This document shows positions 15,462-36,533 of a stretch of DNA of 42,466 nt, in pieces. The DNA lies in contig JADZAQ010000084.1 of assembly GCA_020852555.1 (NCBI GenBank), positions 1 through 42,466 on the forward strand, written 5' to 3'. Position 1 is the first letter of the stretch. The number at the start of each line of letters is the position of its first letter. The stretch is from Burkholderiales bacterium (lineage in GTDB: Bacteria; Pseudomonadota; Gammaproteobacteria; Burkholderiales; Casimicrobiaceae). The notes beneath the pieces were generated by a model that saw only the letters and a program-made list of their open reading frames with translations, did not search any database and was not told the DNA's origin. Position numbers and translations under genes: made by a program.

Positions 15462-16446
15462 AGCCGCGGGATGGGCCGGGCATGCCGGCCCGGGCGCGAG
15501 CCGCGCCGCCGGCGGCGATCCCCAGCGTCATGGCGAGGAGCGCGGCGAGAACGTTGTGCAGCGTGGCCGAGCCGAGGGGCCAGCCACCCATCACGGTCGC
15601 GGCGCCGGCGACGACCTGCGCCACGACGAGCACCACGAGCCACGCGGCGAGCCGCCGCCGCGCCGCGCGCAAGCGCCAGGCCAGAAGCGCGGCGGTCACC
15701 ACGAACCCCAGCGCGGCGAAGCGGTGGGCGAGATGCAGTCCCGGCCCGGCGCCGGCCCCCAAAGTTGGCGACGCTTGCAGCGGGTCGAGTGCGGCGGTGC
15801 TCCACTGCGCGCCGCCCACGCACAGCGGCGCGGCGCAGGCGGCGATCGCGTGCCGGGCGCCGATCATCGCTCCGGTCCAGGCAACGAGCGCGACGAGCGC
15901 CAGCCCGACGATGGCGGCGCGCGAGATCGCTGCCGCTTCGGACGGGATGGTGCCGGTCGAACGTCGGGAGTCATTCGCCCCGGCCGTCGCGTCGCGGTGA
16001 CGAAGCGCAGCAGCGACCCATCCGAGGGCCGCGGCCAATAGGAGCCCGCCACCGAGATTGCCGAGCGTCACCAGCGGCAAGTCGTGCGGGGTGTAGCGGC
16101 CGAGCCAGGCGAGGAATGCCGTCACGGTCACCGCCAGAACGGCCGCGAGGCGCCCCGAGGTGGGGAGCGACGTCCAGCCGAGCACGGTCACGGCGAGGAC
16201 GAGGACGCCGACCGCCGTCGCGCTCACCCGGTGCAGCGCCCGCGCGCTGCGTACGCCTGGCAGGTCGCCGGTCGTCGCGGCGGCGGCCGCAGCGGCGCCG
16301 GTCGTGGCGGCGGCCGCCGGTGCCGTGCGATAGCACGCCGGCCAATCGGCGCAGCCCACGCCGTTCTGGACGTGGCGGATGAAGGCGCTCGAGGCGGTGA
16401 TGCACACCGTGAGCAACGCGGCGGCGAACGCGAGGATACGGATCAT
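15460..16446 (-). CDS. ctaA: Heme A synthase-like protein (CtaA/COX15 family)
   Basis: A 328-residue polytopic membrane protein of the COX15/CtaA family, which oxidises the C8 methyl of heme O to give heme A. Eight hydrophobic segments are visible, with the family segments NGVGCADWPACYR (28-40), ALHRVSATAVG, LHLAHRFAALGF and ATLHNVLAALLAM carrying the heme-ligand histidines. An Ala/Thr-rich stretch at about 43-58 is inserted in the first loop. It begins 1 to 4 bases inside the end of the preceding subunit I-like gene (ATG at 16446, stop at 16443) and is the last gene of the nine-gene operon. Together with CtaB it suggests that at least one heme-copper enzyme here carries heme A or a related modified heme. 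Confidence 0.88.
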   Translation of the reverse strand: MIRILAFAAALLTVCITASSAFIRHVQNGVGCADWPACYRTAPAAAATTGAAAAAAATTGDLPGVRSARALHRVSATAVGVLVLAVTVLGWTSLPTSGRLAAVLAVTVTAFLAWLGRYTPHDLPLVTLGNLGGGLLLAAALGWVAAALRHRDATAGANDSRRSTGTIPSEAAAISRAAIVGLALVALVAWTGAMIGARHAIAACAAPLCVGGAQWSTAALDPLQASPTLGAGAGPGLHLAHRFAALGFVVTAALLAWRLRAARRRLAAWLVVLVVAQVVAGAATVMGGWPLGSATLHNVLAALLAMTLGIAAGGAARARAGMPGPSRG

Positions 16447-17918
16447 CGGACCCGGCGCGCCGTGATCACGCTGTCGAGCACCACCCACACGAAGAGGATG
16501 CCACCGGCGATCGCCAGCAACCCGCCCAGCCCCATCAAGCCCATGCCCGCGACCTCCTGCGTGGTGCGCAGCGTCTGCTCGGCGCCCGCCACCTTGCGCT
16601 GCACGCCGTAGCCGCCGGACCACAGCAAGCCCAGGATGTGGAGCAACTGGCCGCCGCCGTACAGCCATGGCTGCCAGTCGGCGAGCCGCCCGCTGACCTC
16701 GCGAAAGCCCAGGCGCGGCAGCAGCGCGTAGGCGAGCCCCATGAGCGCCAGCGTCACGCCGACGATCGAGCCGTGGTAGTGCGCCGGAATCCGTACGTCG
16801 GAGCCCTGGATGAGGAAGCCGATGAGCCCCCCGGCCGCGAACAGCAGCAGCGAGGCGACGAGTGCCGCGCGCAGCGGCCGGGTCACCGCGGTCGTCACCC
16901 GCTGCCGCGCCAGCGCCACGGCGAGCGCGAGCACCATCGGCAGGATGGCGAGCCCGCCGCCGAAGCGCATGAGCCAGGTCATCATCTTGCGATGCTCGAC
17001 CGAGACGACGGTCCAGTTGAGATAGATGATCGGGGCGACGAATACCGAGGCGAGGCCGATCGCGTAGACGAGCACGACCACGCGGGGGCTCAGCGGCAGC
17101 GGCGAGCCGGCGAGCGTGGCGAGCCACGCCCACGCGACCAGCATGAGCAGCGTCCAGGTGAATTGGACGACATGGCCGGGCCCCCAGAACAGGAGCTCGT
17201 AGTAGGTGAGGGTGTCGACGTCGCGCGGGACCTCGGCCAGCGACCAGGCCATCGCCATCAGCGCGACGGCACTCGATACCGCGGCGGCCTTGAGGCCGAA
17301 GCGCAACGCATCGGTGCCGTCGAGGCGCAGGCTCATGCGCGTCGGCGCGACGAACGAGCGCAGCGTCAGGAGCAGGAACCCCGCACCCAGCACGACGAGC
17401 CCGGCGAGGAAGCTCGGGTTGTCGAGGACCGGCACGTAGTTCGACATCACCGGGACGGCAGCGCCGGTGAACGGCGCTGCCGCCATGAGCGCGGTACCGG
17501 CGGCGGTCACCACGAGGGCGAGCCAGCCCAACCAGACGAAGCGCGGCGAGGTGTCGAGCGTCCACAGCATGCCCGCCATCGACACGAACCACACGAGCAC
17601 CGACAGGTCGACGTGGACGACGAGCGCAACCCGGAAGAAGTCGCCGGCGGGGACGATCCCGGCGAAGAACGGCGTCCTGGCGAGCACCAGCAGGATCGAG
17701 AATACGCCGGCGCCGATGAGCGCCGTCAAGCCCAGCAGCAGCCAGCCGGTGGCGATCGAGCGCTGTGCGGCGGCGGGAACGGCGATGTCGAAGCGATCGT
17801 CGCGCAGCGCCACCGGCGCGCGGTCGAACGGGCGCGCCGAGCCGGCGGGCGGCGCGCTGCTCACCGGGCGCCTCCGCATGCCGGCCCGCGACCGGGCGGC
17901 GCACCCCGCTGCCGCCAT
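16443..17918 (-). CDS. Divergent heme-copper oxidase/NO reductase subunit I-like protein
   Basis: A 491-residue polytopic protein distantly related to heme-copper oxidase subunit I. Candidate ligands are H102 (VVHVDLSVLVWF, low-spin heme), H249 (FWGPGHVVQFTW, in the position of the first CuB ligand) and H380/H382 (RIPAHYHGSIVG, the HxH pair for both hemes). The expected HH pair for CuB is replaced by E308-H309 (VVSVEHRKMMTW), and no Tyr follows H249. About twelve hydrophobic segments are present, with MSNYVPVLDNPSF as another family segment. The active-site metal may thus be absent or different. Start at 17918; ATG at 17879 would remove a charged leader. It lies between the unknown 168-aa protein and ctaA. 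Confidence 0.78.
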   Translation of the reverse strand: MAAAGCAARSRAGMRRRPVSSAPPAGSARPFDRAPVALRDDRFDIAVPAAAQRSIATGWLLLGLTALIGAGVFSILLVLARTPFFAGIVPAGDFFRVALVVHVDLSVLVWFVSMAGMLWTLDTSPRFVWLGWLALVVTAAGTALMAAAPFTGAAVPVMSNYVPVLDNPSFLAGLVVLGAGFLLLTLRSFVAPTRMSLRLDGTDALRFGLKAAAVSSAVALMAMAWSLAEVPRDVDTLTYYELLFWGPGHVVQFTWTLLMLVAWAWLATLAGSPLPLSPRVVVLVYAIGLASVFVAPIIYLNWTVVSVEHRKMMTWLMRFGGGLAILPMVLALAVALARQRVTTAVTRPLRAALVASLLLFAAGGLIGFLIQGSDVRIPAHYHGSIVGVTLALMGLAYALLPRLGFREVSGRLADWQPWLYGGGQLLHILGLLWSGGYGVQRKVAGAEQTLRTTQEVAGMGLMGLGGLLAIAGGILFVWVVLDSVITARRVR

Positions 17919-17922: not shown

Positions 17923-18429
17923 TCACCGGATCACCACGCCGCCCTGGTCGGGAATGAAGTCGATCAGGATCACCTGTCCCGGCGCCAGCGTGACCTGCCG
18001 CTCCTTCTCGTGGTTGAAGCCCTTGACGCGAACGTTGTCGTTCACCTGCACGCGCACGAGGTGCTCGCCGGCCGGGATCGGCTGGCGGCGATAGCCGCTC
18101 GCCGCCCCGTCACGGCGCAGCCCCGCCGCCGGAAACGTCTCGTCCAGCACGAGCTTGCCGTCGAGGTCGACGCGAACGCGCACCGGCGAGCGCTCGCGCG
18201 GGCAATCCATCTGCGCGCGCAGTTGCGGCGACATCTTGGCGAGCTCTTCCGGACTGCGCGGACGGCAATCGGTGGTGAGTTGCCCGGGCGCCCGGAACGA
18301 CAGCCGCAGAAGTGCCTGGTCGGCCGGCAGGTGCTGGTATGCCGGCGCCGTGGAGAAGTAGCCGATGAAAGCGGCGAACAGGATGTAGAGGATTGCCTGT
18401 CCACCGTAGCGCAACGCCGAGTTAGCCAT
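17923..18429 (-). CDS. Unknown membrane-anchored periplasmic protein
   Basis: A 168-residue protein I do not recognise. One N-terminal transmembrane helix (about 9-27, GGQAILYILFAAFIGYFS) is followed by a probably periplasmic, beta-rich domain with strands such as RVRVDLDGKLVLDETF, GEHLVRVQVNDNVRV and QVILIDFIPDQGGVVI at the C-terminus. It has two lone cysteines, C55 and C76, that could form a disulfide. The ATG at 18429 overlaps the end of the cytochrome b fusion gene by 8 bp, and the stop is 4 bases before the next start. The tight packing suggests an accessory subunit or assembly factor of the surrounding enzyme. Confidence 0.75.
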   Translation of the reverse strand: MANSALRYGGQAILYILFAAFIGYFSTAPAYQHLPADQALLRLSFRAPGQLTTDCRPRSPEELAKMSPQLRAQMDCPRERSPVRVRVDLDGKLVLDETFPAAGLRRDGAASGYRRQPIPAGEHLVRVQVNDNVRVKGFNHEKERQVTLAPGQVILIDFIPDQGGVVIR

Positions 18430-20056
18430 GGGTACTGTCTCCGAGCGGGCGGCGGGTCGGGCCGCCGGCTGCCTTGTTTGTCCCGCCCGCGGGAAGCCGC
18501 GCACGGAACGCTTCGATGTCGCGGTCGAGCGCGGAGCCTCGTTCGCGGCCGGCATGGACCACCGTCAGTCGCGCAGGGTCGACGCTGCGGCGCAGCCGCG
18601 GCGGGCGCAGGCCGGCGATGCGCTCCAGTGTCCATCGTACCCCGAAGCGGTATTCGCAATCACCCACCGCGCACGTCGCCACCACCACACCGGCGGCGCC
18701 CGCCCGCAATCCGTAGTCGACGAAGGTCGGCGGCAGCATCCCGGTGCAGGGTAGCCCGATGACGATCGTCCCCGGCCGCGCGGCCGGAACCGCGCCGCAA
18801 TGGCAGGCGAACACCAGGACCGAGCCGGTCGCGCCGGGTTGGCCCAGCGCGGTGTCGATCGCTGTACGCACGGCGTCGACGGTGAAATACGGCAAGTCGA
18901 TGCCGCTCACCAGACGGGCGGCCGAGCGGAACGGCACCGCCGATGGACATGCGCCCGCGCAGATCCCGCACGATGCACAGCGGTCGGCGTCGACCACCGC
19001 GATCTCGCCCTTGCCGCTCGGGTGCGGCGCCATCGCGATCGCGGCGTACGGGCAATCCTCGAAGCAGCGCCGGCAACCGTTGCAGTGCTGCGCGACGACG
19101 ACGGCCGGTGCCGGCCGCGGCCTGCCCCCGAGCCACGGCGCCACCGCGAGCAGGAGCGTCACGCCGACGCTCGCGATCCAGACCGCTTCCGGTGAGGTGG
19201 TGTAGATGGCCGGCAGCGGGGCGAGGTAGAACCAGTCGATCGGCAGGCTCGCCGACACCCGGGCCAGGTCCGCCGGCGGTCCCGACGTCGCGGGGACGAC
19301 GAGCGACAGCACGACGAGCGCGGCGAGCGAGGCCAGCGCCACGTCGCGCGACGCACCGGTCTGCGGCCGGGTGAGCCGCTGCACGTGCATCCACATCGCG
19401 AGCAGCAGCACGAGCGGCAGCCCGATGTGGAGGAAAGCCACCAGCGAGAACAGGCGGTCGGACACCGCTGCCTCGCCGATGAAGTTACGGACGAGCGCCG
19501 GGCCGAAGCCGGGCAGCGCCCCGAACCATTCGGTGGTGGCGGTCGCCACGAAGAGCGCGAGCTCGTCCCAGACCATCCAGTAGCCGACGACGCCGGCGGC
19601 AACCGCGAGCCACAGCGTGGGGACGCCGCTCACCCAGCTGTACCAGCGAAAGCCGCGAAAGCGCCCGAGCATGAGCTCGCGCACGAGGTGGAGCACGATC
19701 ACCACGACGAAGGCGTCCGACGCGTAGCGGTGCAGGCTGCGCATCACGCCACCCGCCCACCACTGGCCGTGGGTGAGCGCCTCGATCGAGGCGTGCGCGC
19801 CGGCGACACTCGTGTCGTAGAAGATGTAGAGGTAGCCCCCGCTCACCGCGATCAGCCAGAAGAGGTAGAAGCCGAGGCCGCCCAGCTGGCGCAGGGGATT
19901 GTCGTCGACGCCGCACAGGCGGTCGAGCGCGTGCTCCGCGGCGCGCCAAGCGCGTGCGGCAGCGCCAGCGCTCGCTACGGGCGCGGCGGCGGGAGGCGTC
20001 GGGGCGGCGATTCCGGGACGGGCGCCACCGCGAGAGTCGAAAAGGATGCGGGCCAC
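18422..20056 (-). CDS. Diheme cytochrome b fused to two [4Fe-4S] clusters and an FlpD/MvhD domain
   Basis: A 544-residue fusion. Residues about 55-250 form a four-helix cytochrome b6-type module with two bis-His pairs at 14-residue spacing: H109/H123 (SLHRYASD, VLHLVREL) and H210/H224 (FLHIGLPL, MWMHVQRL), expected to hold two b hemes across the membrane. One more helix follows at about 288-307. Then come two [4Fe-4S] motifs, C325/C328/C331/C335 and C360/C363/C366/C370. Residues about 410-480 match the FlpD/MvhD domain (hydrogenase delta subunit), with FACHCG (C418, C420), LPCTGMLPPTF (C437) and ATCAVGDCEYR (C462, C467). MvhD normally passes electrons between a hydrogenase and heterodisulfide reductase. 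Here it would link a soluble donor or acceptor to membrane hemes and perhaps quinone; that role is inferred. Confidence 0.9.
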   Translation of the reverse strand: MARILFDSRGGARPGIAAPTPPAAAPVASAGAAARAWRAAEHALDRLCGVDDNPLRQLGGLGFYLFWLIAVSGGYLYIFYDTSVAGAHASIEALTHGQWWAGGVMRSLHRYASDAFVVVIVLHLVRELMLGRFRGFRWYSWVSGVPTLWLAVAAGVVGYWMVWDELALFVATATTEWFGALPGFGPALVRNFIGEAAVSDRLFSLVAFLHIGLPLVLLLAMWMHVQRLTRPQTGASRDVALASLAALVVLSLVVPATSGPPADLARVSASLPIDWFYLAPLPAIYTTSPEAVWIASVGVTLLLAVAPWLGGRPRPAPAVVVAQHCNGCRRCFEDCPYAAIAMAPHPSGKGEIAVVDADRCASCGICAGACPSAVPFRSAARLVSGIDLPYFTVDAVRTAIDTALGQPGATGSVLVFACHCGAVPAARPGTIVIGLPCTGMLPPTFVDYGLRAGAAGVVVATCAVGDCEYRFGVRWTLERIAGLRPPRLRRSVDPARLTVVHAGRERGSALDRDIEAFRARLPAGGTNKAAGGPTRRPLGDSTHG

Positions 20057-20062
20057 GCGACT

Positions 20063-20926
20063 TCAGACACGTTTCGTGCGCCGTAGCTCCCGCAGCATGA
20101 ACCAGGCGATCGCCCCCAGGGTGGTGAGGCCCGCGAAGATCTCGAAGAACAGCGAGTAGTTGACCCGGTAGCCGCCGGTCTGTGGATCGTAGACGGTGCA
20201 GTAGAGGACGACCTTCTCCCAGACGTTGTCGAGGGTGAGCTCGCGTGAGACCTGCCCGGAACGCAATTCCTTGAGCGGCTGCACCAGCATCGGCAAGTCG
20301 AATTTCTCGCCGTAGACCTGGCGGTAGATGACGCCTTCGGCGTCGACGATCGTCACCTGCGTGACGTGGTCGAAACCCTTGGGGGTCGCCTCGTAGACGA
20401 AGCCCAGATTCGCGGTGAGCGCGTCGACCTGCGTCGGATCCGGGCTCAGGAAATGCCAGTCGGCCTCGTCGATCCGGTTCTGACGCTTGAAGACGGCCAT
20501 CGCCGCCGGGGTGTCGAACGGCTGGTTGAAGCCGATCGACACGACCGTGAAGGCGTCGTTGCCGAGCGCGCGACGCGCCTCGCGCACCGCCTCGGCGAGG
20601 AACTGGGTCGTCACCGGGCACGCCTGGAAGCAGCCGGTGTAGATGAGGCTCACCAGCAGTGGGCGACCCCGAAAGTCGCTCGGGCGAACGTCCTTGCCGG
20701 TGCTGTCGCGCAAACGGATGTCGACAAGCGGCCGGCCGATCGCCGCCTGGCTCGCCGCCACCGCGCGCCGGTAGTCGGGAATCCGCTGGACATCGTCCGA
20801 AGTTTCGGCGGCACCCCACGCCGGCAGCGTGACGAGGCAGGCGACGGCGCCGGCCGCGAGCCAGGCAGTCGGGCGGCGGGCGGTCGATGCGCGGCAGGAG
20901 GCGCGACCCGGCACGGCGTCAGGCAC
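20063..20926 (-). CDS. SCO1/SenC-family copper chaperone with C-terminal membrane anchor
   Basis: A 287-residue thioredoxin-fold protein that delivers copper, usually to the CuA site of heme-copper enzymes. The copper ligands are C99 and C103 (YTGCFQACPVTT) and H187 (GFDHVTQVTIVD). The N-terminus has a hydrophobic export segment (about 20-40) and, unusually for the family, a second hydrophobic helix near the C-terminus (about 255-280, LFFEIAGLTTLGAIAWFML-like), so both ends may be in the membrane. It starts 8 bp inside the end of ctaB. Its place next to a CuA subunit gene fits the role. SenC genes also accompany sNOR-type NO reductase genes in ammonia oxidisers. Confidence 0.92.
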   Translation of the reverse strand: MPDAVPGRASCRASTARRPTAWLAAGAVACLVTLPAWGAAETSDDVQRIPDYRRAVAASQAAIGRPLVDIRLRDSTGKDVRPSDFRGRPLLVSLIYTGCFQACPVTTQFLAEAVREARRALGNDAFTVVSIGFNQPFDTPAAMAVFKRQNRIDEADWHFLSPDPTQVDALTANLGFVYEATPKGFDHVTQVTIVDAEGVIYRQVYGEKFDLPMLVQPLKELRSGQVSRELTLDNVWEKVVLYCTVYDPQTGGYRVNYSLFFEIFAGLTTLGAIAWFMLRELRRTKRV

Positions 20927-21785
20927 CGAGCGAGGACCTCATCCAGCCGTCGGCGATGGTTCCCAGGAGGAGCAGCGAGAGCTGGACGAGCGAGGCGTGG
21001 AAGCTGGCCAGCGCATTGGCACGATTCGGCGTGCGAGCCAGCAGCCACGCGCGCCAGACGAAGAGCGCGCCACCGACGGCTGCACTGGCGAGGTAGAGCC
21101 AGCCGGGACCGAGCAGTGCGAGCAGGAGCGAGCAGGCCACCATGACGGCCGCGTGCCAGAAGATCACCCAGGCGGCGAAGCGATCCCCTTTGACGACGGG
21201 CAGCATCGGCACGCCCACGCTCGCATAGTCGTCGCGGCAGACGATGGCGAGGCTCCAGAAGTGCGGCGGCGTCCAGAGGAACAGCACGACGGCGAGGACG
21301 AGCGCTTCGGGTGACAGCTGCGGCGAGACCGCTGCCGCGCCGGCGAGCACCGCGAAGCTGCCGGCCAACCCCCCGATCACGATGTTCCACGGGCTGCGCC
21401 GCTTGAGCCACACCGTGTAGACGATCGCGTAGAAGAAAGCGCCGAGGAACGTGTAGAACGCGGCGGCCGCGTTGGTGGCGAGCCACGCCGCCGCCACGGC
21501 GACGCCGGTGAGCGCGACGATGAGCGCAAGCCAGCCGCGATGGCGCCGCATGTGCCCGCTCACGAACGGGCGGCGGCGGGTACGCGTCATCCGCGCGTCG
21601 AGGTCGACCTCGTAGAACTGGTTGAAGGCGCCGGCTGCCGCCGACGAGAGCAGCACGGCGAGCGTCAGGACCACGCCCTGCCAGAGCGCGAGCGTGCTGC
21701 CCGGCGACACCATCAACCCGGCGACCGCGGTGAGCGCGATCGCCACGCCGATGCGCAGCTTGAAGAGATCGAGCAATGCCTTCAT
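20919..21785 (-). CDS. ctaB: Heme O synthase (protoheme IX farnesyltransferase)
   Basis: A 288-residue UbiA-family prenyltransferase that converts heme B to heme O with farnesyl diphosphate. The first Asp-rich motif is NQFYEVDLDARMTRTRRRP (55-73, with N55, D61 and D63), and the second half carries LWTPPHFWSLAIVCRDDYA and VGVPMLPVVKG. About eight to nine transmembrane helices are visible. With CtaA at the operon end it provides the heme A pathway. The start at 21785 follows the subunit I gene by 76 bp, and the stop overlaps the SCO start. Confidence 0.95.
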   Translation of the reverse strand: MKALLDLFKLRIGVAIALTAVAGLMVSPGSTLALWQGVVLTLAVLLSSAAAGAFNQFYEVDLDARMTRTRRRPFVSGHMRRHRGWLALIVALTGVAVAAAWLATNAAAAFYTFLGAFFYAIVYTVWLKRRSPWNIVIGGLAGSFAVLAGAAAVSPQLSPEALVLAVVLFLWTPPHFWSLAIVCRDDYASVGVPMLPVVKGDRFAAWVIFWHAAVMVACSLLLALLGPGWLYLASAAVGGALFVWRAWLLARTPNRANALASFHASLVQLSLLLLGTIADGWMRSSLGA

Positions 21786-21861
21786 GCCGGAACCCCGGCA
21801 CCGGGCTGCGGCTCGCAGCCCGGTGCTGTCCGCGTCTTCGGGGAGAGCACGCCGCCCCCGC

Positions 21862-23568
21862 CTAGCTCAGGCCCCAGACCGTGGACAGGTACTTCCAGTT
21901 GACGAAGTAGTACAGCACGAAGGCGACCAGGAACACCATCGCGAACACGAAGGTGCCCGGCACGCCCCAGCCGCCGCCGTGGCCGCCGTCCTCGACGAGC
22001 GAGACCTGCACCGGCAGGCGCAGCGGCGTGACCTTGGGCGAGTAGGCGCCCGCATCGAGCTTCTTGCCGAACAGGATCGTGCCGACCGTGACGGTGATGT
22101 ACATGATGCCCCCGATCACGGCAATCACGCCCCCGATCGCGAAGATCGCGATCATCAGCAGCGCGGTGCCCGGGAACTCGTACGGCAGCGCCGCGCCGGC
22201 GAAGGTGATGTCCCAGTGGCGGCGCGGCACGCCGAGCGTTCCGGCGCCCATCATGGCGAGCGTGAATACCCCCATCCCGAGGCCGAAGACGTACGGCTGC
22301 AGCTTCGCCCATCCGGGCAGGATCATCTCGCGGTTGAAGAGCGTGGGCAGCAGGAAGTAGGTGAGCGACATGAACGCCAGCGTGGTGCCGATCACGACCG
22401 TGGCGTGGAAGTGCCCCGGCACGTAGATCGTGTTGTGGATGATCATGTTGAGCTGCTCGGTGCCCATCATCACGCCGGAGATGCCGCCCAGGAAGCCGAA
22501 GCCGATGAGCGAGATGAACATTCCCGAGAACACCGGATTGCTCCACGGCGCCTTGCGCAGCCACTCGAAGAGGCCCTTGGTGTAGCCCTTCGCGCGCTGC
22601 GCGGCTTCGATCGCACCCGGCACGGTGAGCCCGTGCAGCATCGATGCGAGCACCGCGAGGTACATCGCGTAGCTCGTGTTGAACACCTTCCACTCGGTGC
22701 CCACCGCCGGGTCGGCGAGGATGTGGTGCGCCGACGCGAGCTGCAGGAACAGGATGTAGAGCAGGAACGCGGACCGGCTCACCCGCTCGGACATCGGCTT
22801 CGCGCCGAACACGATCGCCGCGATCGCGTACCACACCGCGATGTGCGCCGACACGTTGATCTGCTGCGACGAGTGGCCGAACGCCCACCAGATCACCCGG
22901 TACATCGCCGGGTCGATGTGGCTGATGTAGCCCGCCGACCACAGGAACGTCGGGATCAGGATGATGGCGCCCGACGCGATGGTGAAGATCGCGATGATGC
23001 ACGCGGTGATCGCGCCGAAGGTGACCAGCGGGACCGAGCCTTCGTAGGTCTTCTCGGACCGGGCGACGACAAGGGTGCCCAGGAAGACGAAACAGCCGAT
23101 GAGCGCGCCGACCGCGAACAGGATGAGCCCCAGGTAGAACGCGGGGATCGCGGGCAGTGGCACGTACGAGGTCATCATCACCGTCGCGTTGCCGGTGAAG
23201 ATCGCCACGTTGAAGGTGATCGTGCCGATCACCATCAGCGCCCACGCGAGCCAGGCGAGCCGCGGCGTGGCGATCCGGCAGCGCAGCAGCGTCGACGAGC
23301 AGAAGTACAGGATCGCGATCTCGAAGAAGATGATCCAGACCACCAGCATGTCGAGACCGTGGGCGGTCAGGTACATGTAGAAGTTGTCGGCGTCGAGCAG
23401 GTGGATCGCCTGCCAGCGCGTGAGTGTGATCAGGAGCGCGAGGACGCCCCCGATGAGCAGCGCGACGACGCCGGCGACGGCGTTGGCTTTGATCAGCAGC
23501 TCGGCCGACTTGTGGAATTGCAGCCCTGTGCGGGGGCAGATGCGGTACTGCGCGACGGCGGTGGCCAT
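21862..23568 (-). CDS. Heme-copper enzyme catalytic subunit I, NO-reductase-like (no cross-link Tyr)
   Basis: A 568-residue polytopic catalytic subunit with all core histidines: H70 (YLTAHGLDM, low-spin heme), H232 (WAFGHSSQQINVS), H281-H282 (LASAHHILADP) as CuB-type ligands, and H386/H388 (VPGHFHATVV) for the two hemes. Oxygen-reducing A- and B-type enzymes have GHPxVY in helix VI with a Tyr four residues after the His; here that residue is Gln236, and no obvious substitute Tyr is seen. Lack of the Tyr is a hallmark of NO reductases, and pairing with a CuA subunit and SenC resembles sNOR (NorSY) clusters of ammonia oxidisers. A non-standard oxygen reductase is the alternative. ATG 23568 is preceded by GGGGGG. 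It follows the subunit II gene by 11 bp. Confidence 0.9.
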   Translation of the reverse strand: MATAVAQYRICPRTGLQFHKSAELLIKANAVAGVVALLIGGVLALLITLTRWQAIHLLDADNFYMYLTAHGLDMLVVWIIFFEIAILYFCSSTLLRCRIATPRLAWLAWALMVIGTITFNVAIFTGNATVMMTSYVPLPAIPAFYLGLILFAVGALIGCFVFLGTLVVARSEKTYEGSVPLVTFGAITACIIAIFTIASGAIILIPTFLWSAGYISHIDPAMYRVIWWAFGHSSQQINVSAHIAVWYAIAAIVFGAKPMSERVSRSAFLLYILFLQLASAHHILADPAVGTEWKVFNTSYAMYLAVLASMLHGLTVPGAIEAAQRAKGYTKGLFEWLRKAPWSNPVFSGMFISLIGFGFLGGISGVMMGTEQLNMIIHNTIYVPGHFHATVVIGTTLAFMSLTYFLLPTLFNREMILPGWAKLQPYVFGLGMGVFTLAMMGAGTLGVPRRHWDITFAGAALPYEFPGTALLMIAIFAIGGVIAVIGGIMYITVTVGTILFGKKLDAGAYSPKVTPLRLPVQVSLVEDGGHGGGWGVPGTFVFAMVFLVAFVLYYFVNWKYLSTVWGLS

Positions 23569-23579
23569 GGTTCCCCCGA

Positions 23580-24119
23580 TCACTTGACGTAGAGCCGCGA
23601 GACCATCTTGTGATGGCCGATGCCGCAGAATTCGTTGCAGACGATGGCGTACTGGCCGGAGCGGTTCGGCGTGACCGTCACCACGTGCTGGTAGCCCGGG
23701 AGCACCTGGATGTTGATGTTCTCCGGCTGCAGCGAGAAGCCGTGCTGGTAGTCCATCGAGGTCAGGTTCAGGCGGTAGCTCTTGCCTTTCTCGAGTTCGA
23801 GGATCGGCCACCAGTCCCACAGCCGCGCGATGAGATAGATGTCGCTGCCCGCCGGCGGCGCCACCACCGGCACCTTGCCGTCGCCCTCGGTGCGCACGGT
23901 GTACTTGTCGACCATCTCCTGCGTGGCCTTGGCGAAGAGCTCGGGTTTGACGCGGTACGTCTCCGATGACAGGTTCTGCTTACCGAACACGTGCCAGTAC
24001 GGCATCATGAAAAACATGATCATGCACCACACGAAGGCGATGACGATCCAGACGATCTCGACCTTGTCGACCGGTTGCTTCCACCAGATGCGTTGCGGCG
24101 GGGGCAGTATGGCGCTCAC
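23580..24119 (-). CDS. CuA-containing subunit II (short, single transmembrane helix)
   Basis: A 179-residue electron-entry subunit. One helix (about 21-40, EIVWIVIAFVWCMIMFFMMP) anchors a periplasmic cupredoxin domain with a full CuA site: H126 (DYQHGFSL), then C161, C165, H169 and M172 in CNEFCGIGHHKM. Standard subunit II has about 250-300 residues and two helices; the short one-helix form recalls ba3 oxidases and sNOR. It should accept electrons from a c-type cytochrome and pass them to subunit I. The start is GTG at 24119, preceded by AGGAG at a good distance. Neighbours are the 59-aa peptide upstream and subunit I downstream. Confidence 0.93.
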   Translation of the reverse strand: MSAILPPPQRIWWKQPVDKVEIVWIVIAFVWCMIMFFMMPYWHVFGKQNLSSETYRVKPELFAKATQEMVDKYTVRTEGDGKVPVVAPPAGSDIYLIARLWDWWPILELEKGKSYRLNLTSMDYQHGFSLQPENINIQVLPGYQHVVTVTPNRSGQYAIVCNEFCGIGHHKMVSRLYVK

Positions 24120-24147
24120 GGCTTGTCTCCTGACGGATTGCGTACGG

Positions 24148-24327
24148 TCACTTCGCGAGCGGCGTCACCGGCACCGTCGCGATCTCCATGACGCCCCAGA
24201 GGATATAGAGCACGGTGGGAATCACGACGCCCAGGAACAGCAGCAGGAACGGGTTGTCGAGGATCTGCTGCATCACGGGGATGCGCTCTTCTTGGTTTTC
24301 GGGCTGCGATCGAGTATGGTCAGCCAT
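24148..24327 (-). CDS. Small single-helix membrane protein, first gene of the NOR-like operon
   Basis: A 59-residue protein with a polar N-terminus (MADHTRSQPENQEER) and one transmembrane helix (about 27-48, FLLLFLGVVIPTVLYILWGV). The ATG at 24327 has a strong ribosome binding site (GGAAGGGGGAGCC), which supports it as real and fixes the start; the longer frame upstream has no such signal. It is 28 bp before the subunit II gene. I do not recognise a named family, but small single-helix subunits are common in heme-copper complexes, so a structural subunit is likely. Confidence 0.8.
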   Translation of the reverse strand: MADHTRSQPENQEERIPVMQQILDNPFLLLFLGVVIPTVLYILWGVMEIATVPVTPLAK

Positions 24328-24411
24328 GGCGGCTCCCCCTTCCTGTCGAATAAGATTGGCAACGAAACCGGCAACACCAGACATCATGGTTGGCCGCGGC
24401 CTGCATCCGCC

Positions 24412-24425
24412 TTGACCTGCATCAA
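24412..24425. promoter_or_regulatory. FNR/DNR-type box between divergent respiratory operons
   Basis: TTGACCTGCATCAA matches the FNR consensus TTGAT-N4-ATCAA at 9 of 10 positions. The centre is about 91 bp upstream of the 59-aa gene start, which allows class II activation (-41.5) of the minus-strand operon with a leader of about 50 nt; CATGAT on the minus strand at about 24382-24387 is a possible -10. It is about 223 bp from the plus-strand start. An FNR-family regulator sensing oxygen or NO is inferred. Confidence 0.6.
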
Positions 24426-24462
24426 AGGTAACCCGGTTGCGCCGGCGAGGCAATGCCGAATC

Positions 24463-24487
24463 CAACACGCGGCATCGCAGCGTGTTG
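24463..24487. promoter_or_regulatory. Operator-like inverted repeat
   Basis: CAACACGC (24463-24470) and GCGTGTTG (24480-24487) form a perfect 8-bp inverted repeat with a 9-nt spacer, 155 bp before the cytochrome b reductase start. It could be a second regulator's site for that gene. No terminator features are present. Confidence 0.4.
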
Positions 24488-24641
24488 CGAGGGTGGCTTT
24501 CGCGGCCGGCGCTGCGCGTTCTTGCAGTGACGGCGCGTTCCCGCTAGTTTCCACATCTTTGCCACTTCGGTCGCGACGCGATGCGTCGCCCGCGGCCGGC
24601 ACCCGGGTGGGGTCGGACGGACGGCATCACGGAGGATCACG

Positions 24642-26561
24642 TTGCTCAAGATAGTTCAAGGATTCCTGCAGTGGTTCTTCCTGCGGATGGAAGCGGTCGG
24701 CAACCGGGTGTTCGGCGATCGGCTGAATCCGATGTACTACCTGGGCGCGACGAGCTACTGGATGTTCTGGATCGTCGTCGCCAGCGGCCTGTACGTCTAC
24801 GTCTTCTACGAGACCGGGGTCGACAAGACGTACGCGTCGATGGAGGCGATCACGCACGGGCAGTGGTTCGCCGGAGGCGTCATGCGCAGCGTGCACCGCT
24901 ACGCGTCCGACGCGATGGTGCTCACGATGCTGTTGCACATGATCCGGCACTTCGCGTTCGACCGCTACCGCAGCTTCCGCGCGTTCTCGTGGGTCACCGG
25001 GGTGATCGTGCTGTGGCTCGTCTACGCCTCGGGTGTGAACGGCTTCATGCTGCCGTGGGACAAGCTCGCGCAGTTCGTCGTGATCGGCACCACCGAATGG
25101 CTCGACGCGCTGCCGGTGTTCAACGGCATCCTGACGCGCAACTTCATCACGCCCGACGCGATCACCGACCGCCTGTTCTCGCTGCTGTCGTTCCTGCACA
25201 TCGGCATTCCACTCGTCGTGATGCTCGCGCTGTGGGTCCACACGCAGCGGGTGCCGCGCGCGTCGCAGATGCCGCCGCGCCGCCTCGCCTACGGCCTCGT
25301 GGCGATGCTGCTGGTGCTCTCCCTCGTCAAGCCGGTGGTGAGCCAGGCGCCCGCGGACTTCAACACGGTGCCGATGCGGCTCGACGTCGACTGGTTCTAC
25401 CTCACGGTCTATCCGCTCATCTATTCGTGGGATCCGCTCAAGCTGTGGATCCTCTGCGCCGGCGTCACCGCATTGCTGCTGGCGCTGCCGTGGCTGCCGC
25501 CGGCGCGCACCGGCACGGGCCGTGCGTATCACCTGACCGCGCATCCCGGGCGGCAGGGCGCGCCGGTGCGCGCGGGGGAGACGCTCCTCGACGCGGGCCT
25601 GCGCGCCGGCATCGCGCTCCCGTACGAATGCCGCTCGGGCGGCTGCGGGGTGTGCAAGGCGACGATGATCGGCGGCGAGGTCGAGATGTCGGGCTACCAG
25701 CCCTCCGCGCTCTCCGCCGAGGAGCGCCGTGCCGGCCGCATCCTGCTGTGCTGCGCGCGCGCGCTGTCCGACGTCGAGTTCGAATACGAGGCGGACGCGG
25801 CCGCCCGCGGCACGCAGATCGACACCTACGAGGCGCACGTCGAGCGGCTGACGCCGCTTGCGCACGACGTGATGCTGGTCGCGCTGCGCCTGTCCGAGGG
25901 GCGCAAGATCGAATTCGAGGCAGGGCAGTACGTGAACGTCGTCCTCGACGGCGGCGAGCGGCGCAGCTACTCGTTCACGACCCCGTCGGGGGCCACCGAG
26001 CTGATCGAGCTGCACGTGCGGCTGATGCCGGGCGGGCTGTTCACCTCGCGCGTGTTCGAATCGATGAAGGTGGGCGACGCCATCACCCTCGAAGGGCCAA
26101 TAGGATCGTTCGTGCTGCACGAGCCCAGCGAGAAGCCGCTCATCTTCGTCGCCGGTGCGACCGGCTTCGCGCCGGTGAAGAGCCTCCTGGAGCAGGCGTT
26201 CCAAATGGGCATCGAGCGACCGCTCTACCTGTACTGGGGCGTGCGGCAGCGTCGCGACCTGTACCTGACGGAGTTGCCGGAACGCTGGGCGCGCGAGCAC
26301 CCGAATTTCCACTTCGTGCCCGTACTCTCGGACGCGGCGCCCGAAGATGCGTGGCACGGGCGCACCGGGCTCGTGCACGAGGCGATCCTCGCCGACTTCC
26401 CGGATCTTTCCGGGTTCGCGGTCTATGCCTGTGGTTCGGTGCGGATGGTCGAGGCGGCACGTCCGGCGTTCGTGACGCAGGGCCTGCACGAGAATGCATG
26501 TTACTCCGACGCCTTCACGCCCGCGGGAGGCGCGCCGCCGGGATCTGCCGCGACGACGTGA
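24642..26561 (+). CDS. Diheme cytochrome b fused to [2Fe-2S]/FAD/NAD(P) ferredoxin reductase
   Basis: A 639-residue fusion. Residues about 30-205 are a cytochrome b6-type module with bis-His pairs H85/H99 (SVHRYASD, LLHMIRHF) and H186/H200 (FLHIGIPL, LWVHTQRV), clearly paralogous to the cytochrome b part of the 18422-20056 protein. A further helix lies at about 268-287. Then a plant-type [2Fe-2S] domain with C330, C335, C338 and C370 (YECRSGGCGVC, RILLCC), an FAD domain (RSYSF at 441-445) and an NAD(P) domain (FVAGATGFAPVKS, then YACGSVRMVEAAR). The tail resembles oxygenase reductases and AscD. It should move electrons between NAD(P)H and membrane hemes, possibly to quinone. The start (frame opens at 24642) follows GGAGG. 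It is convergent with the cbb3 operon, 6 bp apart. Confidence 0.92.
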   Translation: MLKIVQGFLQWFFLRMEAVGNRVFGDRLNPMYYLGATSYWMFWIVVASGLYVYVFYETGVDKTYASMEAITHGQWFAGGVMRSVHRYASDAMVLTMLLHMIRHFAFDRYRSFRAFSWVTGVIVLWLVYASGVNGFMLPWDKLAQFVVIGTTEWLDALPVFNGILTRNFITPDAITDRLFSLLSFLHIGIPLVVMLALWVHTQRVPRASQMPPRRLAYGLVAMLLVLSLVKPVVSQAPADFNTVPMRLDVDWFYLTVYPLIYSWDPLKLWILCAGVTALLLALPWLPPARTGTGRAYHLTAHPGRQGAPVRAGETLLDAGLRAGIALPYECRSGGCGVCKATMIGGEVEMSGYQPSALSAEERRAGRILLCCARALSDVEFEYEADAAARGTQIDTYEAHVERLTPLAHDVMLVALRLSEGRKIEFEAGQYVNVVLDGGERRSYSFTTPSGATELIELHVRLMPGGLFTSRVFESMKVGDAITLEGPIGSFVLHEPSEKPLIFVAGATGFAPVKSLLEQAFQMGIERPLYLYWGVRQRRDLYLTELPERWAREHPNFHFVPVLSDAAPEDAWHGRTGLVHEAILADFPDLSGFAVYACGSVRMVEAARPAFVTQGLHENACYSDAFTPAGGAPPGSAATT

Positions 26562-26567: not shown

Positions 26568-27302
26568 CTATCGCGCGTCGACGCTGCACAGGTACGGCAT
26601 CCACGGGTGCAGCGCCGGTATCGCGGTGACCAGCCACGGGGCGGTGAGTGTGAGCGCCGCCCCGGCGAGCAGCACGACTCCGGCGCCACGGCGCAGCGCG
26701 GTGCGCGAACCGAGTGCCGCGAGCCGTCGTGCGCCGAAGGCGGCGGCGAGCATCGCCGGTGCGGTCCCGAGACCGAACATCAGCATCGTCGCCGCGGCCC
26801 GCAAGGCGTCGAGTTGCAGCGCGGCGAGCGTCAGCACCGTGTAGACGAAGCCGCAGGGCATGAATCCCCAGACCATGCCGAAGCCGATCGCCCGCGGCAG
26901 GCTCGTCACCGGCAGGAGCCTGCGACCGAGCGGCGCGAGCTTCGGCCAGAGATGCCGGCCGACGAAACCGGCGCCGACGTCGCGCAGGCGCCCGAAGGCA
27001 ACCAGCGCCCCGGCGACGAGGGCGAGTGCGGCGACGATGCGCAGCGCGCGGCGTACTCCCTCGGCAGCGAGTGCGTCGGCCAGCGCGCCGAGCGCACCCC
27101 CCACGACGAGCGCGACGAGCGCGTAGGCGAACACGCGCCCGACCTGGTAGCCGACGAGGAAGTCGGCGCGGGGTCGTCCGTTCGCTCCGCGCGCGGTCGC
27201 GAGTCCGAGCGCGGTGGAGATGCCGCCGCACATCACGAAGCAGTGTCCGCTGGCGGCGAGGCCGAGGAGGAGCGCGGCGAGGAGCGTGATGTTACCGGTC
27301 AT
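26568..27302 (-). CDS. TauE/SafE (DsbD_2)-family membrane protein of the cbb3 operon
   Basis: A 244-residue membrane protein with about six helices of the family annotated as sulfite exporter TauE/SafE (DsbD-like transmembrane fold). It starts MTGNITLLAALLLGLAASGH and has the Cys pair region HCFVMCGG and later WGFMPCGFVYTVL, the two conserved CG elements of this group. Members are very often the last gene of cco operons and are thought to help copper supply or maturation of cbb3 oxidase, not sulfite export; that role is not firmly established. It overlaps ccoS by 4 bp. Confidence 0.85.
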   Translation of the reverse strand: MTGNITLLAALLLGLAASGHCFVMCGGISTALGLATARGANGRPRADFLVGYQVGRVFAYALVALVVGGALGALADALAAEGVRRALRIVAALALVAGALVAFGRLRDVGAGFVGRHLWPKLAPLGRRLLPVTSLPRAIGFGMVWGFMPCGFVYTVLTLAALQLDALRAAATMLMFGLGTAPAMLAAAFGARRLAALGSRTALRRGAGVVLLAGAALTLTAPWLVTAIPALHPWMPYLCSVDAR

Positions 27303-27502
27303 CGCGGCTCGCTCGGAGTCGGCGGCGGGCTCACGTTGGACGCCGTGCCGGGTGCGGCCACCGGGTCGACGTCGGTGAGCGGCAGGAGGCCCGGCGTCTC
27401 CATGTCGTCGAACTGGCCGTGATCGACCGCCCAGAAAAGGACGATGCCGGCGCCGACGAGTACCACGATCGACACGCCGATCAGCACGACGAGGATGCTC
27501 AT
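27299..27502 (-). CDS. ccoS: cbb3 oxidase maturation protein CcoS
   Basis: A 67-residue protein with one N-terminal transmembrane helix (about 2-25) followed by the CcoS signature FWAVDHGQFDDMETPGLLPL. CcoS is needed for cofactor insertion into CcoN. The C-terminal tail is Pro-rich. It overlaps ccoI by 4 bp and the next gene by 4 bp. Confidence 0.93.
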   Translation of the reverse strand: MSILVVLIGVSIVVLVGAGIVLFWAVDHGQFDDMETPGLLPLTDVDPVAAPGTASNVSPPPTPSEPR

Positions 27503-29952
27503 GCCGATGCCTGTACCGGCGCCGGCACCGCGGATGTGGCGACGCGCCGTTCACGCCCGATGCGCAGTGCATTGAGCACGACGACGAGCGAGCTCGCCGA
27601 CATGCCGAGTGCGGCAAGCCACGGCGGCACGAAGCCCAGCGCGGCGAGCGGAACCGCGGAAAGGTTGTACACCAGCGCCCAGCGCTGGTTGACGAGGAGG
27701 GTGGCGAGCGTGCGCTTCGCCAGCGCGTGCGTGTCGGCGAGCGCCCGCGGGTCGTCGCGGGCGAGGACGATGTCGCTCGCCGTCTGCGCGATCGCCGCTC
27801 CGGACGCCATCGCGATCCCGACGTCGGCGCCGGCGAGCACCGGCGCGTCGTTGATGCCGTCGCCGACCGCGACCACGCGCGCGCCACCCGCGCGCAATGC
27901 GTGCAGCCAGGCGAGCTTGCCCGCCGGGTCGACCTGCGCGCGCCACTGCGCGATACCGAGCGCACCGGCGATCGCGGCGACCTTGGGCGGCGCATCGCCG
28001 CTCACCAGCGCGACCTCGAGCCCGGCCGCACGCAACGCGGCGACGGCGCCACGTGCCCCCTCGCGGAGGCGCTCGCGCACGTGCAGCACGGCGATCACCC
28101 CGGCGTCGTCGGCGAGCACGACGGCGTCGGCGCCGTACCCCGCGGCATCGCGCGCCGTCGGGTCGCGCAGCGCGAATCCCGCGTGGCCGAGTCGCAGGTG
28201 GCGCGCGCCGATGCGTCCCGCGACTCCGGCGCCGGCCTCGGTGACGGCATTGTCGACGGGCAGCGTCGACGTCGGCACGGCCGTGGCGATCGCGTGGGCC
28301 ACCGGATGCGCGCTGGTGCGCGCGAGCGCCGCGGCGAGCGCCAGCGCGTCGTCGCGCGTGGTGCTGCCGAAGGTCTCCACGCGATCGAGTTCGAGCCACG
28401 GCTGGGTGAGCGTCCCCGTCTTGTCGAACATCACGTGCGTCGCGCCGGCGAGCGCTTCGAGCGCATCCGGTCGGACCACCAGCACGCCGCGCGCGGCGAG
28501 GACCGCGAGCGCACGCGTGACTGCCGCCGGGGCGGCGAGTGCGAAGGCGCACGGACAGGAGACGACGAGCACGGCGACGGTCGCCGCGAACGCGCGCGAC
28601 GGATCGACGACGAGCCAGGCGAGCGCCGTGGCGGCGGCGAGCGTGAGGACACGGGCGACGAACCGCGCGGCGGCGCGCTCGCCCGCCTGTGCGATGCGTG
28701 GCCGCTCGCTCGCCGCGCGCGAGGCCAACGCGACGATCGAGGAGAGGACGGTGTCGGCGCCGGCCCGTTCGACGCGCACGGTCGCCGCCACGTCGACGAT
28801 CACGCTGCCCGCGCACAGCGCATCGCCGGTGCGCTTGACGACTGGCGTCGACTCGCCGGTGAGCAGCGACTCGTCGACGCGGCAGGGCGCGCTCTCCAGC
28901 ATGCCGTCGGCCGGGACGAGCGTACCGACCGCGACCAGCACGCGATCGTCGGGGACGAGTTCGAAGGCGCCCACGCGCGTCGTCGAGCCGTCGGCGGCAA
29001 GGCGCAGCGCGACCTGCGGTGCCGAGCGCGCCAGCGCGTCGGTGAGGTCGCCGGCGCGATGGCGGGCGCGCATCTCGAGATGGCGGCCGAGCAGCAGAAA
29101 GAATACGAACATGCTCACCGATTCGAAGTACACCTCGCCGGTCCCGCGCAGTACCTCGATCACGCTGCCGGCGTAGATGAGTGCGATGGCGAGCGCGACC
29201 GGCACGTCCATGCCGAGGCGGCGCGCCCGCAGGAGGCGCAGCGCGCCGGCGAAGAACGGCGCGCCGGCGTAGATCACCACCGGCGTGGCGACGGCAAAGC
29301 CCAGCCAGCGGAAGAGTTCGCGGGCCGCCGGATCGAGGTCGTCGAAGGCGCCGAAGTAGAGTGCGCTCGCATACATCATCGCCTGCATGGCGCCGAAGCC
29401 GGCCACCGCCAGGCGCTTCATGGCCGAGCGCGCTTCCCGCCCGCGGGCGTCGTCGAGTGCCGCGGCGTCGAGCGGCAGCGCCCGGTAACCCAGGCGCGCG
29501 AAGGCGTCGACGATCGCCGGCAGCGCCACGCGGGCGGGATCGAAGCTGATGCGCGCGCGCCGCGCGCTGCCGTTGACGGCCACCTGCGCCACGCCCGGCA
29601 GCGTCCCCACGCCGTGCTCGATCAACCACGAGCACGCCGCGCAGCGCAGGCCGTCGACCACCACCACGGTTTCCGCGCTGCCGTCGGGCAGTGCCTGCAC
29701 GAGGTGACGCGCGAGTTCGGGGCGGGCGAAGGCCTGCGCCGCCCGCGCGGTCTCGTCGAGGTCCGGCGCTCGGGGCGCCACGCGTTCGCGCAAGCGGTAG
29801 TAGTCGGCGAGTCCCAGCGTACCGATCCATTCGGCGGCAGCACGACAGCCGGGGCAGCACACCGCGTGCGTTTCGCCGGCGACGTGCGCGAGCGGCGGAT
29901 CGCGCGGCAGCGGTTCGCCGCAGTGCCAGCAACCGTGGCGGTCGCTGCTCAT
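27499..29952 (-). CDS. ccoI: Copper-exporting P-type ATPase for cbb3 assembly (CcoI/FixI)
   Basis: An 817-residue P1B-type ATPase that supplies copper to the cbb3 oxidase from the cytoplasmic side. The N-terminus has a Cys-rich metal-binding segment (CWHCG, then CCPGCRAA) typical of CcoI, and an HMA domain with CAAC (GLRCAACSWLIEHG). Motifs seen are the TGES loop (LLTGESTPVV), the metal-site CPC (VVSCPCAFALAAP), the phosphorylation site DKTGTLT and the hinge GDGINDAPVL. The start at 29952 (MSSDRHGCWHCGEP) is preferred over an upstream in-frame codon at 30003. It is 28 bp after the small membrane protein gene and overlaps ccoS. Confidence 0.95.
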   Translation of the reverse strand: MSSDRHGCWHCGEPLPRDPPLAHVAGETHAVCCPGCRAAAEWIGTLGLADYYRLRERVAPRAPDLDETARAAQAFARPELARHLVQALPDGSAETVVVVDGLRCAACSWLIEHGVGTLPGVAQVAVNGSARRARISFDPARVALPAIVDAFARLGYRALPLDAAALDDARGREARSAMKRLAVAGFGAMQAMMYASALYFGAFDDLDPAARELFRWLGFAVATPVVIYAGAPFFAGALRLLRARRLGMDVPVALAIALIYAGSVIEVLRGTGEVYFESVSMFVFFLLLGRHLEMRARHRAGDLTDALARSAPQVALRLAADGSTTRVGAFELVPDDRVLVAVGTLVPADGMLESAPCRVDESLLTGESTPVVKRTGDALCAGSVIVDVAATVRVERAGADTVLSSIVALASRAASERPRIAQAGERAAARFVARVLTLAAATALAWLVVDPSRAFAATVAVLVVSCPCAFALAAPAAVTRALAVLAARGVLVVRPDALEALAGATHVMFDKTGTLTQPWLELDRVETFGSTTRDDALALAAALARTSAHPVAHAIATAVPTSTLPVDNAVTEAGAGVAGRIGARHLRLGHAGFALRDPTARDAAGYGADAVVLADDAGVIAVLHVRERLREGARGAVAALRAAGLEVALVSGDAPPKVAAIAGALGIAQWRAQVDPAGKLAWLHALRAGGARVVAVGDGINDAPVLAGADVGIAMASGAAIAQTASDIVLARDDPRALADTHALAKRTLATLLVNQRWALVYNLSAVPLAALGFVPPWLAALGMSASSLVVVLNALRIGRERRVATSAVPAPVQASA

Positions 29953-36529: not shown

Positions 36530-36533
36530 TCGC

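Follow-up and report, generated by a model that had tools for sequence, protein, structure and literature searches.

Gene content of the locus

A respiratory gene cluster was analyzed in a 42,466-nucleotide stretch of DNA from a Burkholderiales bacterium (assembly GCA_020852555.1, contig JADZAQ010000084.1, positions 1 to 42,466), which is referred to as a whole as the window. The cluster joins the genes of a heme-copper enzyme, assigned below to the eNOR-type nitric oxide (NO) reductases, to two homologous cytochrome b genes (cytb1 and cytb2) with different redox tails. A minus-strand operon running from ~24.33 to 15.46 kb encodes, in this order, TM59, CuA subunit II, subunit I, CtaB, SCO, cytb1, P6, COX1b and CtaA, the last of which abuts or overlaps the end of COX1b, while cytb2 is a divergent gene on the plus strand. 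The features are as follows:

24642-26561, plus strand: cytb2, diheme cytochrome b with a DWF motif and a [2Fe-2S]/FAD/NAD(P) reductase tail, BenC/MmoC-like
24412-24425, unstranded: FNR/DNR-type box common to both divergent transcription units, with one mismatch
24148-24327, minus strand: TM59, a 59-residue protein with a single transmembrane (TM) helix, first gene of the operon and putative small eNOR subunit
23580-24119, minus strand: eNOR subunit II (assignment by sequence), one TM helix and a CuA cupredoxin domain (COX2, E=2.2e-5)
21862-23568, minus strand: eNOR subunit I, norI (assignment by sequence; COX1, E=3.1e-64, scored on the longer frame 21862-23820)
20919-21785, minus strand: CtaB/CyoE heme O synthase (TIGR01473, 268.7 bits, above cut-off)
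20063-20926, minus strand: SCO family protein (PF02630, E=2.7e-11), CuA copper delivery by family
18422-20056, minus strand: cytb1, diheme cytochrome b with a DWF motif, a 2[4Fe-4S] ferredoxin domain and an FlpD/MvhD domain (Pfam)
17923-18429, minus strand: P6, TM helix and beta-sandwich, presumably on the periplasmic side, with a conserved Cys pair; partner of cytb1
16443-17918, minus strand: COX1b, subunit I homologue (COX1, E=2.5e-14), true start uncertain
15460-16443, minus strand: CtaA/COX15-like heme A synthase (PF02628, E=9.1e-21, on the enclosing frame), start uncertain

An original prediction, made from the sequence alone, had named a CuA COX2, a COX1, SCO, CtaB, CtaA and a second COX1 at this locus, and all of them were found by domain search, the second COX1 at 16443-17918. 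It also had the two cytochrome b genes flanking this set and two unknown proteins, which was correct for the enzyme genes, SCO and CtaB and incorrect for CtaA, COX1b and one of the unknowns, P6, which lie outside the interval; cytb1 lies within the minus-strand operon, to which TM59 is added as first gene.

The terminal enzyme is predicted to be an eNOR-type NO reductase

Subunit I of the window has complete His ligands for the hemes and CuB, and a Gln (Q236) occupies the site of the cross-linked Tyr in helix VI. In the alignment, H70, H232, Q235, Q236, H281, H282 and H386 were found in 78/78 distinct rows and H388 in 77/78 (row counts for subunit I, cytb1, cytb2 and COX1b mix loci from the genome searches with loci gathered using cytb1 as query). 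Replacement of the helix VI Tyr by Gln is the eNOR criterion in the available passages of PMC8756737, which also claim a proton channel for eNOR, and because subunit I has Gln at this site the terminal enzyme is classified, by its sequence, as an eNOR-type NO reductase. The system had originally been put forward as a candidate undescribed one, a claim that fails for its terminal enzyme, since eNOR is a described family. NO would be the substrate in the window's organism, for which linkage to nirS (below) provides the context. The closest solved structures to subunit I are ba3-type oxidases. The CuA cupredoxin subunit II is encoded directly upstream of subunit I, as in eNOR, and its translation has the CNEFCGIGHHKM motif and an upstream His, conserved in a 66-row alignment.

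TM59 was recognizable upstream of the CuA gene in most eNOR loci with room for it, with Y41 and W44 in 51/51 rows. A short open reading frame (ORF) stands in its place in Thermus (41 residues, annotated as hypothetical, unmatched to TM59 in sequence) and in Thermomicrobium (51 residues, matched by sequence). A further subunit I match (G000:C122) gave no family in the frames scanned, and a fragment on C106 was weakly COX1/NnrS-like, below both cut-offs.

Both cytochrome b genes co-occur with eNOR

A sample of 398 Pseudomonadota genomes (the phylum sample) was searched with subunit I (E<=1e-30) and cytb1 (E<=1e-40). Subunit I matched in 34/398 genomes, of which 30 were kept (51-100% identity); four matches of 28-31% identity were dropped as eNOR by score (135-152 bits vs at least 617 for the others) and are probably ordinary oxidases. 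cytb1 was found in 34 genomes, comprising 29 of the 30 eNOR-bearing ones and 5 of the 368 others (Fisher p ~8e-38, indicative only, as the genomes are related and their independence is overstated). These searches scored at most three first-look candidates per genome, which makes their absences soft; all candidates were scored in other searches, among them those of the 61-genome relatives set below. All co-occurrence counts rest on genome searches, and contig loci were gathered with cytb1 as query. In the one eNOR genome without cytb1 (G069), the contig stops after SCO, cutting the cluster, and no cytb1 was found elsewhere. Four of the five cytb1-only genomes (G121, G145, G227 and G278) carry SCO, CtaB or COX1b next to cytb1 close to where contigs end, which looks as though the assembly lacked the eNOR part; the fifth (G137) has only cytb1-P6.

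For cytb2, a set of 61 genomes (the window's and 60 relatives; the relatives set) was used, in which full-length cytb2 and eNOR were found in 18 genomes each, 16 of them shared. Thus, cytb2 was present in 16/18 eNOR-positive vs 2/43 eNOR-negative genomes, and one of the two cytb2-only genomes (G424) holds TM59 together with a CuA gene truncated where the contig ends. Together, the cytb1 and cytb2 counts uphold the original prediction that the b genes belong with the heme-copper system: the outcome named in advance as speaking against it, absence of the b genes from most related clusters, was not observed at the genome level.

The contig search with cytb1 gave 77 loci, 57 of which (L007-L063) aligned through the b module; in the remaining 20 the match was confined to the Fe-S or FlpD tail. 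Loci titled alpha-, beta- and gammaproteobacteria repeat the order TM59-CuA-norI-CtaB-SCO-cytb1-P6(-COX1b). Most of this order was seen in loci titled Deltaproteobacteria, where CtaB was unmatched, and part of it in loci titled Nitrospirota. In L056 and L058 the same eNOR and cytb1 genes are rearranged yet still together. The same order, with eNOR, was also found on a Defluviimonas plasmid, the sole record with a cytb1 or P6 match among 72,556 plasmid records. Conserved gene order had originally been named as a check; it recurs in Pseudomonadota and holds only in part in the phylum sample, in which cytb1 lay within the same stretch as eNOR in 14/29 genomes and separately in 11. A methyl-accepting-chemotaxis-like protein (L036:4446-6641 (+) and 13 other loci; one representative scanned) was found mostly near deltaproteobacterial cytb1/eNOR.

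Homologous b modules carry unrelated tails

The b domains of cytb1 and cytb2 share 135/265 identical residues (50.9%), and their local alignment score of 728 vs a maximum of 62 in 200 shuffles rules out a chance origin of the shared segments. Their tails show no relationship, scoring 42 where the shuffles reached 49: Pfam identified a 4Fe-4S dicluster and FlpD in the first, and Fer2, FAD_binding_6 and NAD_binding_1 in the second. Two homologous b modules with different tails had been predicted at 18422-20056 (-) and 24642-26561 (+), and the positions, the homology and the difference in tails are all confirmed. The b core consists of four helices with two bis-His hemes, as in cytochrome bc/b6f. 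In cytb1, the four heme His and the eleven tail Cys tested were each found in 81-82/82 rows, and the DWF motif, whose equivalence to PEWY is a reading and not an aligned structure, was found as DW in 82/82 and with F in 70/82 rows. The heme His, DWF and four Fer2 Cys of cytb2 were present in 26/26 rows. Selenocysteine in cytb1 was considered for six matches flagged "1 TGA" and rejected, as TGA was the ordinary C-terminal stop in the four that were read. Tandem cytb1 copies lie close together in L112, L152, L156 and L157 (one family, f40) and in L053.

A tree of 108 b domains placed all 27 cytb2 sequences in one clade (100/100) nested inside cytb1, sister to 27 betaproteobacterial-type cytb1 sequences (joint clade 96/91). 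Because cytb2 forms a single nested clade, it most likely arose once, by duplication of a Burkholderiales b module and tail replacement. The replacing tail is most like BenC/AntC/MmoC, with the same domains, and scored 207 bits vs the curated cut-off of 430 bits for BenC. In two clusters (L130 and L132), cytb2 stands in the place of cytb1. The order in G450 (a one-contig chromosome) and G414 is cytb2-P6-COX1b-CtaA without cytb1, and no cytb1 turned up elsewhere in these two genomes when they were searched with cytb2, a query able to pick up cytb1 in other genomes; cytb2 can therefore stand in for cytb1.

The usual order among the relatives is SCO-cytb2-P6-cytb1-COX1b-CtaA. In the phylum sample, cytb2 was found only in the window's genome and in G366, which belong to one taxonomic order, and among L007-L063 it was full-length in eight betaproteobacterial loci (L007-L011, L013, L017 and L024). 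In L058, L060 and L061 the best b-domain match was to cytb2, yet no cytb2-type tail was found in the stretch examined. One system with two input branches had been proposed originally. As genetics, a single system with alternative electron inputs is well supported, including by the replacement of cytb1 in two clusters; the two-branch form was found only in Burkholderiales/Betaproteobacteria, and the arrangement is not general across eNOR loci.

P6, partner protein of the b module

P6 lies directly after cytb1 in 86/102 cases with room for it, the 16 exceptions having either the cytb2-P6-cytb1 order or tandem cytb1, and directly after cytb2 in 14/25 (both counts include duplicate loci; L012 and L134 are apparently one contig). 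In the window it follows cytb1 only. The two proteins are fused as one reading frame in L048, L050 (twice), L051, L057 and L058. P6 is thus a partner of the b module. Residues C55, C76, R78, R80, G103, D107 and G121 are invariant in 39 rows, and an AlphaFold2 model (mean pLDDT, a per-residue confidence score, of 93.3) presented a TM helix and a beta-sandwich. The cytb1-P6 fusion was modeled with a mean pLDDT of 81.7 and a low-confidence linker, and the placement of P6 relative to the b domain was uninformative; the fusion alignment leaves out P6-only rows, which misaligned when mixed in.

Several ORFs were observed around P6. Those convergent to it cluster together in 10/12 cytb1 loci compared, and one of this group (L144:9510-9899) looks related to a small membrane protein of ~97 residues (L026:10173-10466 (-)) found in 16 loci. 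A hemerythrin-family gene (L116:19589-19993 (+)) directly follows P6 on the Defluviimonas plasmid.

COX1b has a replaced CuB site

COX1b keeps the His of helices II, VI and X in 43/43 distinct rows. Its helix VII CuB pair is replaced by Ile in 32/43 and Tyr in 41/43 rows, and Phe is found at the Tyr site in 41/43, from which COX1b is probably unable to hold a normal CuB. Its distribution is patchy, with matches in 3/29 eNOR stretches of the phylum sample vs 17/20 stretches from relatives.

Denitrification genes and an FNR/DNR-type box accompany the cluster

In the relatives set, a cytochrome d1 domain (PF02239, which also matches NirS paralogues) was found in 15/18 eNOR-positive vs 8/43 eNOR-negative genomes, and no NirK above cut-off was found among the eNOR-positive genomes. 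A nirS gene lay 1.7-13.0 kb from eNOR in 12/87 eNOR-holding stretches (identity at least 50%, a filter that drops matches such as one of 25% in L088). It lay 0.9-1.5 kb from cytb1 in 8/11 separate loci (L139-L149) of eNOR-positive genomes; a ninth (L145) has only a cut nirS match ~6.6 kb away, and L149 ends soon after P6. Two further neighbor families, spanning 8 and 7 loci, each had one representative above cut-off, as NirJ (L085) and NarH (L037), respectively.

The shared FNR-like site of the original prediction was recovered as TTGACCTGCATCAA at 24412-24425, with one mismatch to TTGATN4ATCAA, in the common intergenic region. A scan of the whole window (up to two mismatches) found 12 sites vs ~3 expected, and this site alone is weak. 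It gains weight because relatives carry boxes upstream too: 46/75 distinct operon upstream regions have a box with at most one mismatch, where random 300-base stretches drawn from these loci would give ~2.5, a control that is mostly coding and not shuffled intergenic DNA.

A candidate electron-supply complex for eNOR

The reading we favor, with a probability of roughly 55%, is that of an eNOR operon with its own electron-supply complex, composed of cytb and P6 and existing in two cytoplasmic tail versions. The operon would provide the enzyme (small TM subunit, CuA subunit II and Gln-type subunit I) and the assembly proteins for its heme (CtaB/CtaA) and its CuA (SCO), and the supply complex would consist of the b6-like diheme cytochrome b and P6. 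Through cytb1, electrons would enter from a soluble low-potential donor via FlpD and two [4Fe-4S] clusters, the FlpD tail implying a soluble partner, and through cytb2 they would enter from NAD(P)H via FAD and [2Fe-2S]. BenC/AntC/MmoC reductases run from NADH to 2Fe-2S, and since the cytb2 tail resembles these NADH-oxidizing oxygenase reductases, electron input is the favored direction. The two b hemes would next carry the electrons across the membrane to a quinone-type DWF site on the p-side beside P6; transmembrane transfer between a cytoplasmic donor and such a site is suggested by the b6-like core, the DWF motif and the tails. From there they may pass to eNOR by quinol, bc1 and cytochrome c or by direct CuA contact. 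Topology, electron direction, acceptor and complex formation are as we infer them, with sidedness taken by analogy from bc complexes. In a bolder form, which we regard as doubtful, cytb, P6 and eNOR would form a physical complex in which NO is reduced directly by cytoplasmic NAD(P)H (through cytb2) or a ferredoxin/FlpD donor (through cytb1), bypassing quinone and bc1, or in which quinol bifurcation makes NAD(P)H at the cost of NO. Either, if true, would amount to a respiratory supercomplex whose cytoplasmic tails are interchangeable.

Several observations weigh against a dedicated supply complex. cytb1 lay outside the fetched eNOR stretch in 15 of the 29 sampled eNOR-positive genomes (11 at a separate locus, three with contig ends between in G136, G157 and G161, and one missing), although two of the 11 separate loci are on the eNOR contig, ~14 and 19 kb away (G085 and G065, respectively). 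Among 12 plasmid records with eNOR, 11 (ten Thermus, one Thermomicrobium) had no cytb1 match on the plasmid, chromosomes being outside this search; the Thermus and Thermomicrobium eNOR loci that were read have the core genes and no b module nearby. A bc1-type Rieske was found in 31/32 eNOR-positive genomes tested (47 known), so that cytochrome c can be reached by a normal route with no need of the b module; 25/32 had cytochrome c1 (PF02167), which was not found in the window's genome. No soluble FlpD donor was recognized in the cluster. For P6, no redox cofactor motif was seen in the 39-row alignment and no Foldseek match was obtained at E<=0.001; with no significant match in sequence or fold, P6 was rejected as a Rieske substitute. 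Finally, an FNR-type box was found at only 1/12 separate cytb1 units vs 1.16 expected, the sole boxed unit (L108) being divergent from eNOR, and at 0/10 truly separate units in eNOR-positive genomes. Shared FNR-type control of the separate units was thus not found, which speaks against a single common regulator.

Instead of a dedicated supply, cytb and P6 might act as quinone reductases of an ordinary kind, NAD(P)H- or ferredoxin-type, supplying the pool in denitrification with no special contact to eNOR. This would agree with the quinone-type site motif (our own reading), with the widespread bc1-type Rieske and with the separate cytb1-P6 pairs, which lie beside nirS and not eNOR in 8/11 loci and have no FNR-type box. 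However, the b module is almost wholly restricted to eNOR-bearing genomes, and six genomes with d1 and no eNOR (G350, G444, G445, G270, G364 and G412) have no b module by the cytb2 search, which makes such general reductases unlikely.

Quinol bifurcation, in which quinol would be oxidized on the p-side with one electron passing to eNOR and NO and the other from bL to bH and through the tail, yielding NAD(P)H or a low-potential carrier in reduced form, is quite unlikely. NO is a very strong oxidant, and the b6-like module has both His pairs and, in our reading, DWF where bc complexes have PEWY. Against this, no Rieske or c-type cytochrome was found among the scanned minus-strand cluster genes or in cytb2, the one Rieske match of the genome being on another contig (G000:C105), and bifurcation is less likely because a Rieske-type acceptor is lacking. 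P6 would hardly substitute, having no cofactor motif, BenC-type tails normally run from NADH, and by our own estimate the driving force for reducing NAD(P)+ looks too small with ubiquinone and CuA as oxidant. A precedent is found in the available part of PMC12954380, where bifurcation is proposed for the Rieske/cytochrome b complexes of anammox that include NAD(P) reductase subunits.

It is improbable that cytb1-P6 belongs to nitrite reduction (NirS or heme d1 maturation) and merely co-travels with eNOR. The proximity of nirS in the 8/11 separate loci points in this direction, but G406, G414 and G415 have eNOR and b modules with no d1 domain at E<=1e-40, the six d1 genomes without eNOR are also without the b module, and the Burkholderiales loci that were read keep the module inside or beside the eNOR cluster. 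A role in maturation, in which heme A synthesis (by CtaA) or CuA assembly would draw its electrons from the b modules, would fit the adjoining CtaA, CtaB and SCO genes and the reductant that heme A synthase requires, but is just as improbable, as window-type CtaA was unmatched in many stretches that keep cytb1 (although a different CtaA lies nearby in 11 loci) and the separate cytb1-P6 pairs adjoin nirS.

Other genes in the window

A cbb3 oxidase operon (CcoN, CcoO, CcoP, a CcoI-type ATPase and a DsbD_2 protein; 26568-33547 (-)) adjoins cytb2 and has an FNR-like box, TTGATCCAGGTCAA, at 33633-33646. It is followed by two ATP-binding cassette import systems, one with a phosphonate-type binding protein (33720-42457 (-)). 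On the other side of the cluster, 11827-14355 (-) encodes a large regulator in which an NB-ARC/STAND NTPase is joined to a DNA-binding domain of OmpR type, and 9457-11425 (+) holds a group II intron with two Rfam intron matches (9457-9595 and 11308-11425) around a reverse transcriptase/maturase ORF (9904-11394).

Significance and comparison with known systems

eNOR is expected to produce nitrous oxide (N2O), a greenhouse gas, in many environmental bacteria. With cytb in two tail versions beside eNOR, the favored reading of an own electron-supply complex suggests a private electron supply for N2O formation, and as cytb/P6 tracks eNOR almost one to one in the sampled Pseudomonadota, it is a testable candidate for a dedicated one. 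cytb1 and P6 can serve as markers for annotating eNOR denitrifiers, and the two b genes clearly exemplify a change of donor in a respiratory module through tail replacement. eNOR itself is already known; its cytochrome b/P6 partners and the tail swap appear new, in that we found no description of a cytochrome b/FlpD or P6 partner of eNOR or of the swap in the literature searched, although the main eNOR paper was outside this search and may describe them. The available passages of the eNOR literature name no electron donor, and a protein with cytochrome b6 and FlpD (RME88945.1) is listed, in another context, in Table A3 of PMC8756737 as far as that source was available.

Among known systems, the Kuenenia Rieske/cytochrome b complexes (available part of PMC12954380) likewise combine a b6-like cytochrome with a cytoplasmic NAD(P)/FAD/Fe-S module and are tied by proposal to nitrogen-oxide metabolism, but they have Rieske, subunit-IV-like and multiheme c subunits, none of which is in the present cluster, where P6 and eNOR are found instead. 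Cytochrome b6/bc1 proteins are the best solved-structure relatives over helices A-D (b6, E ~1e-34) and share the two His pairs 14 residues apart, with DWF where PEWY is expected. In contrast to them, cytb is a single chain with only about two helices past helix D and an Fe-S or flavin tail, and the cluster has no Rieske or cytochrome c1/f gene. The tail of cytb1, with two [4Fe-4S] motifs and FlpD with its four Cys, corresponds to MvhD/FlpD and the C-terminal part of HdrA2, but is fused to cytochrome b and has no HdrA flavin domain. Similarly, the cytb2 tail has the plant-type [2Fe-2S], FAD and NAD domains of BenC/AntC/MmoC, but scores below the curated cut-offs and is fused to a membrane cytochrome b. 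The eNOR family was reportedly described by Hemp and Gennis (2008) and Murali et al. (2024), and the enzyme encoded here shares its Gln-type subunit I, directly preceded by the gene for a CuA subunit II. Both are also linked to a nitrite reductase, NirK in PMC4653789 and NirS here. What sets the present operon apart from that family is that it is accompanied by a diheme cytochrome b occurring with two different tails, by P6 and by a subunit I homologue predicted to lack CuB.

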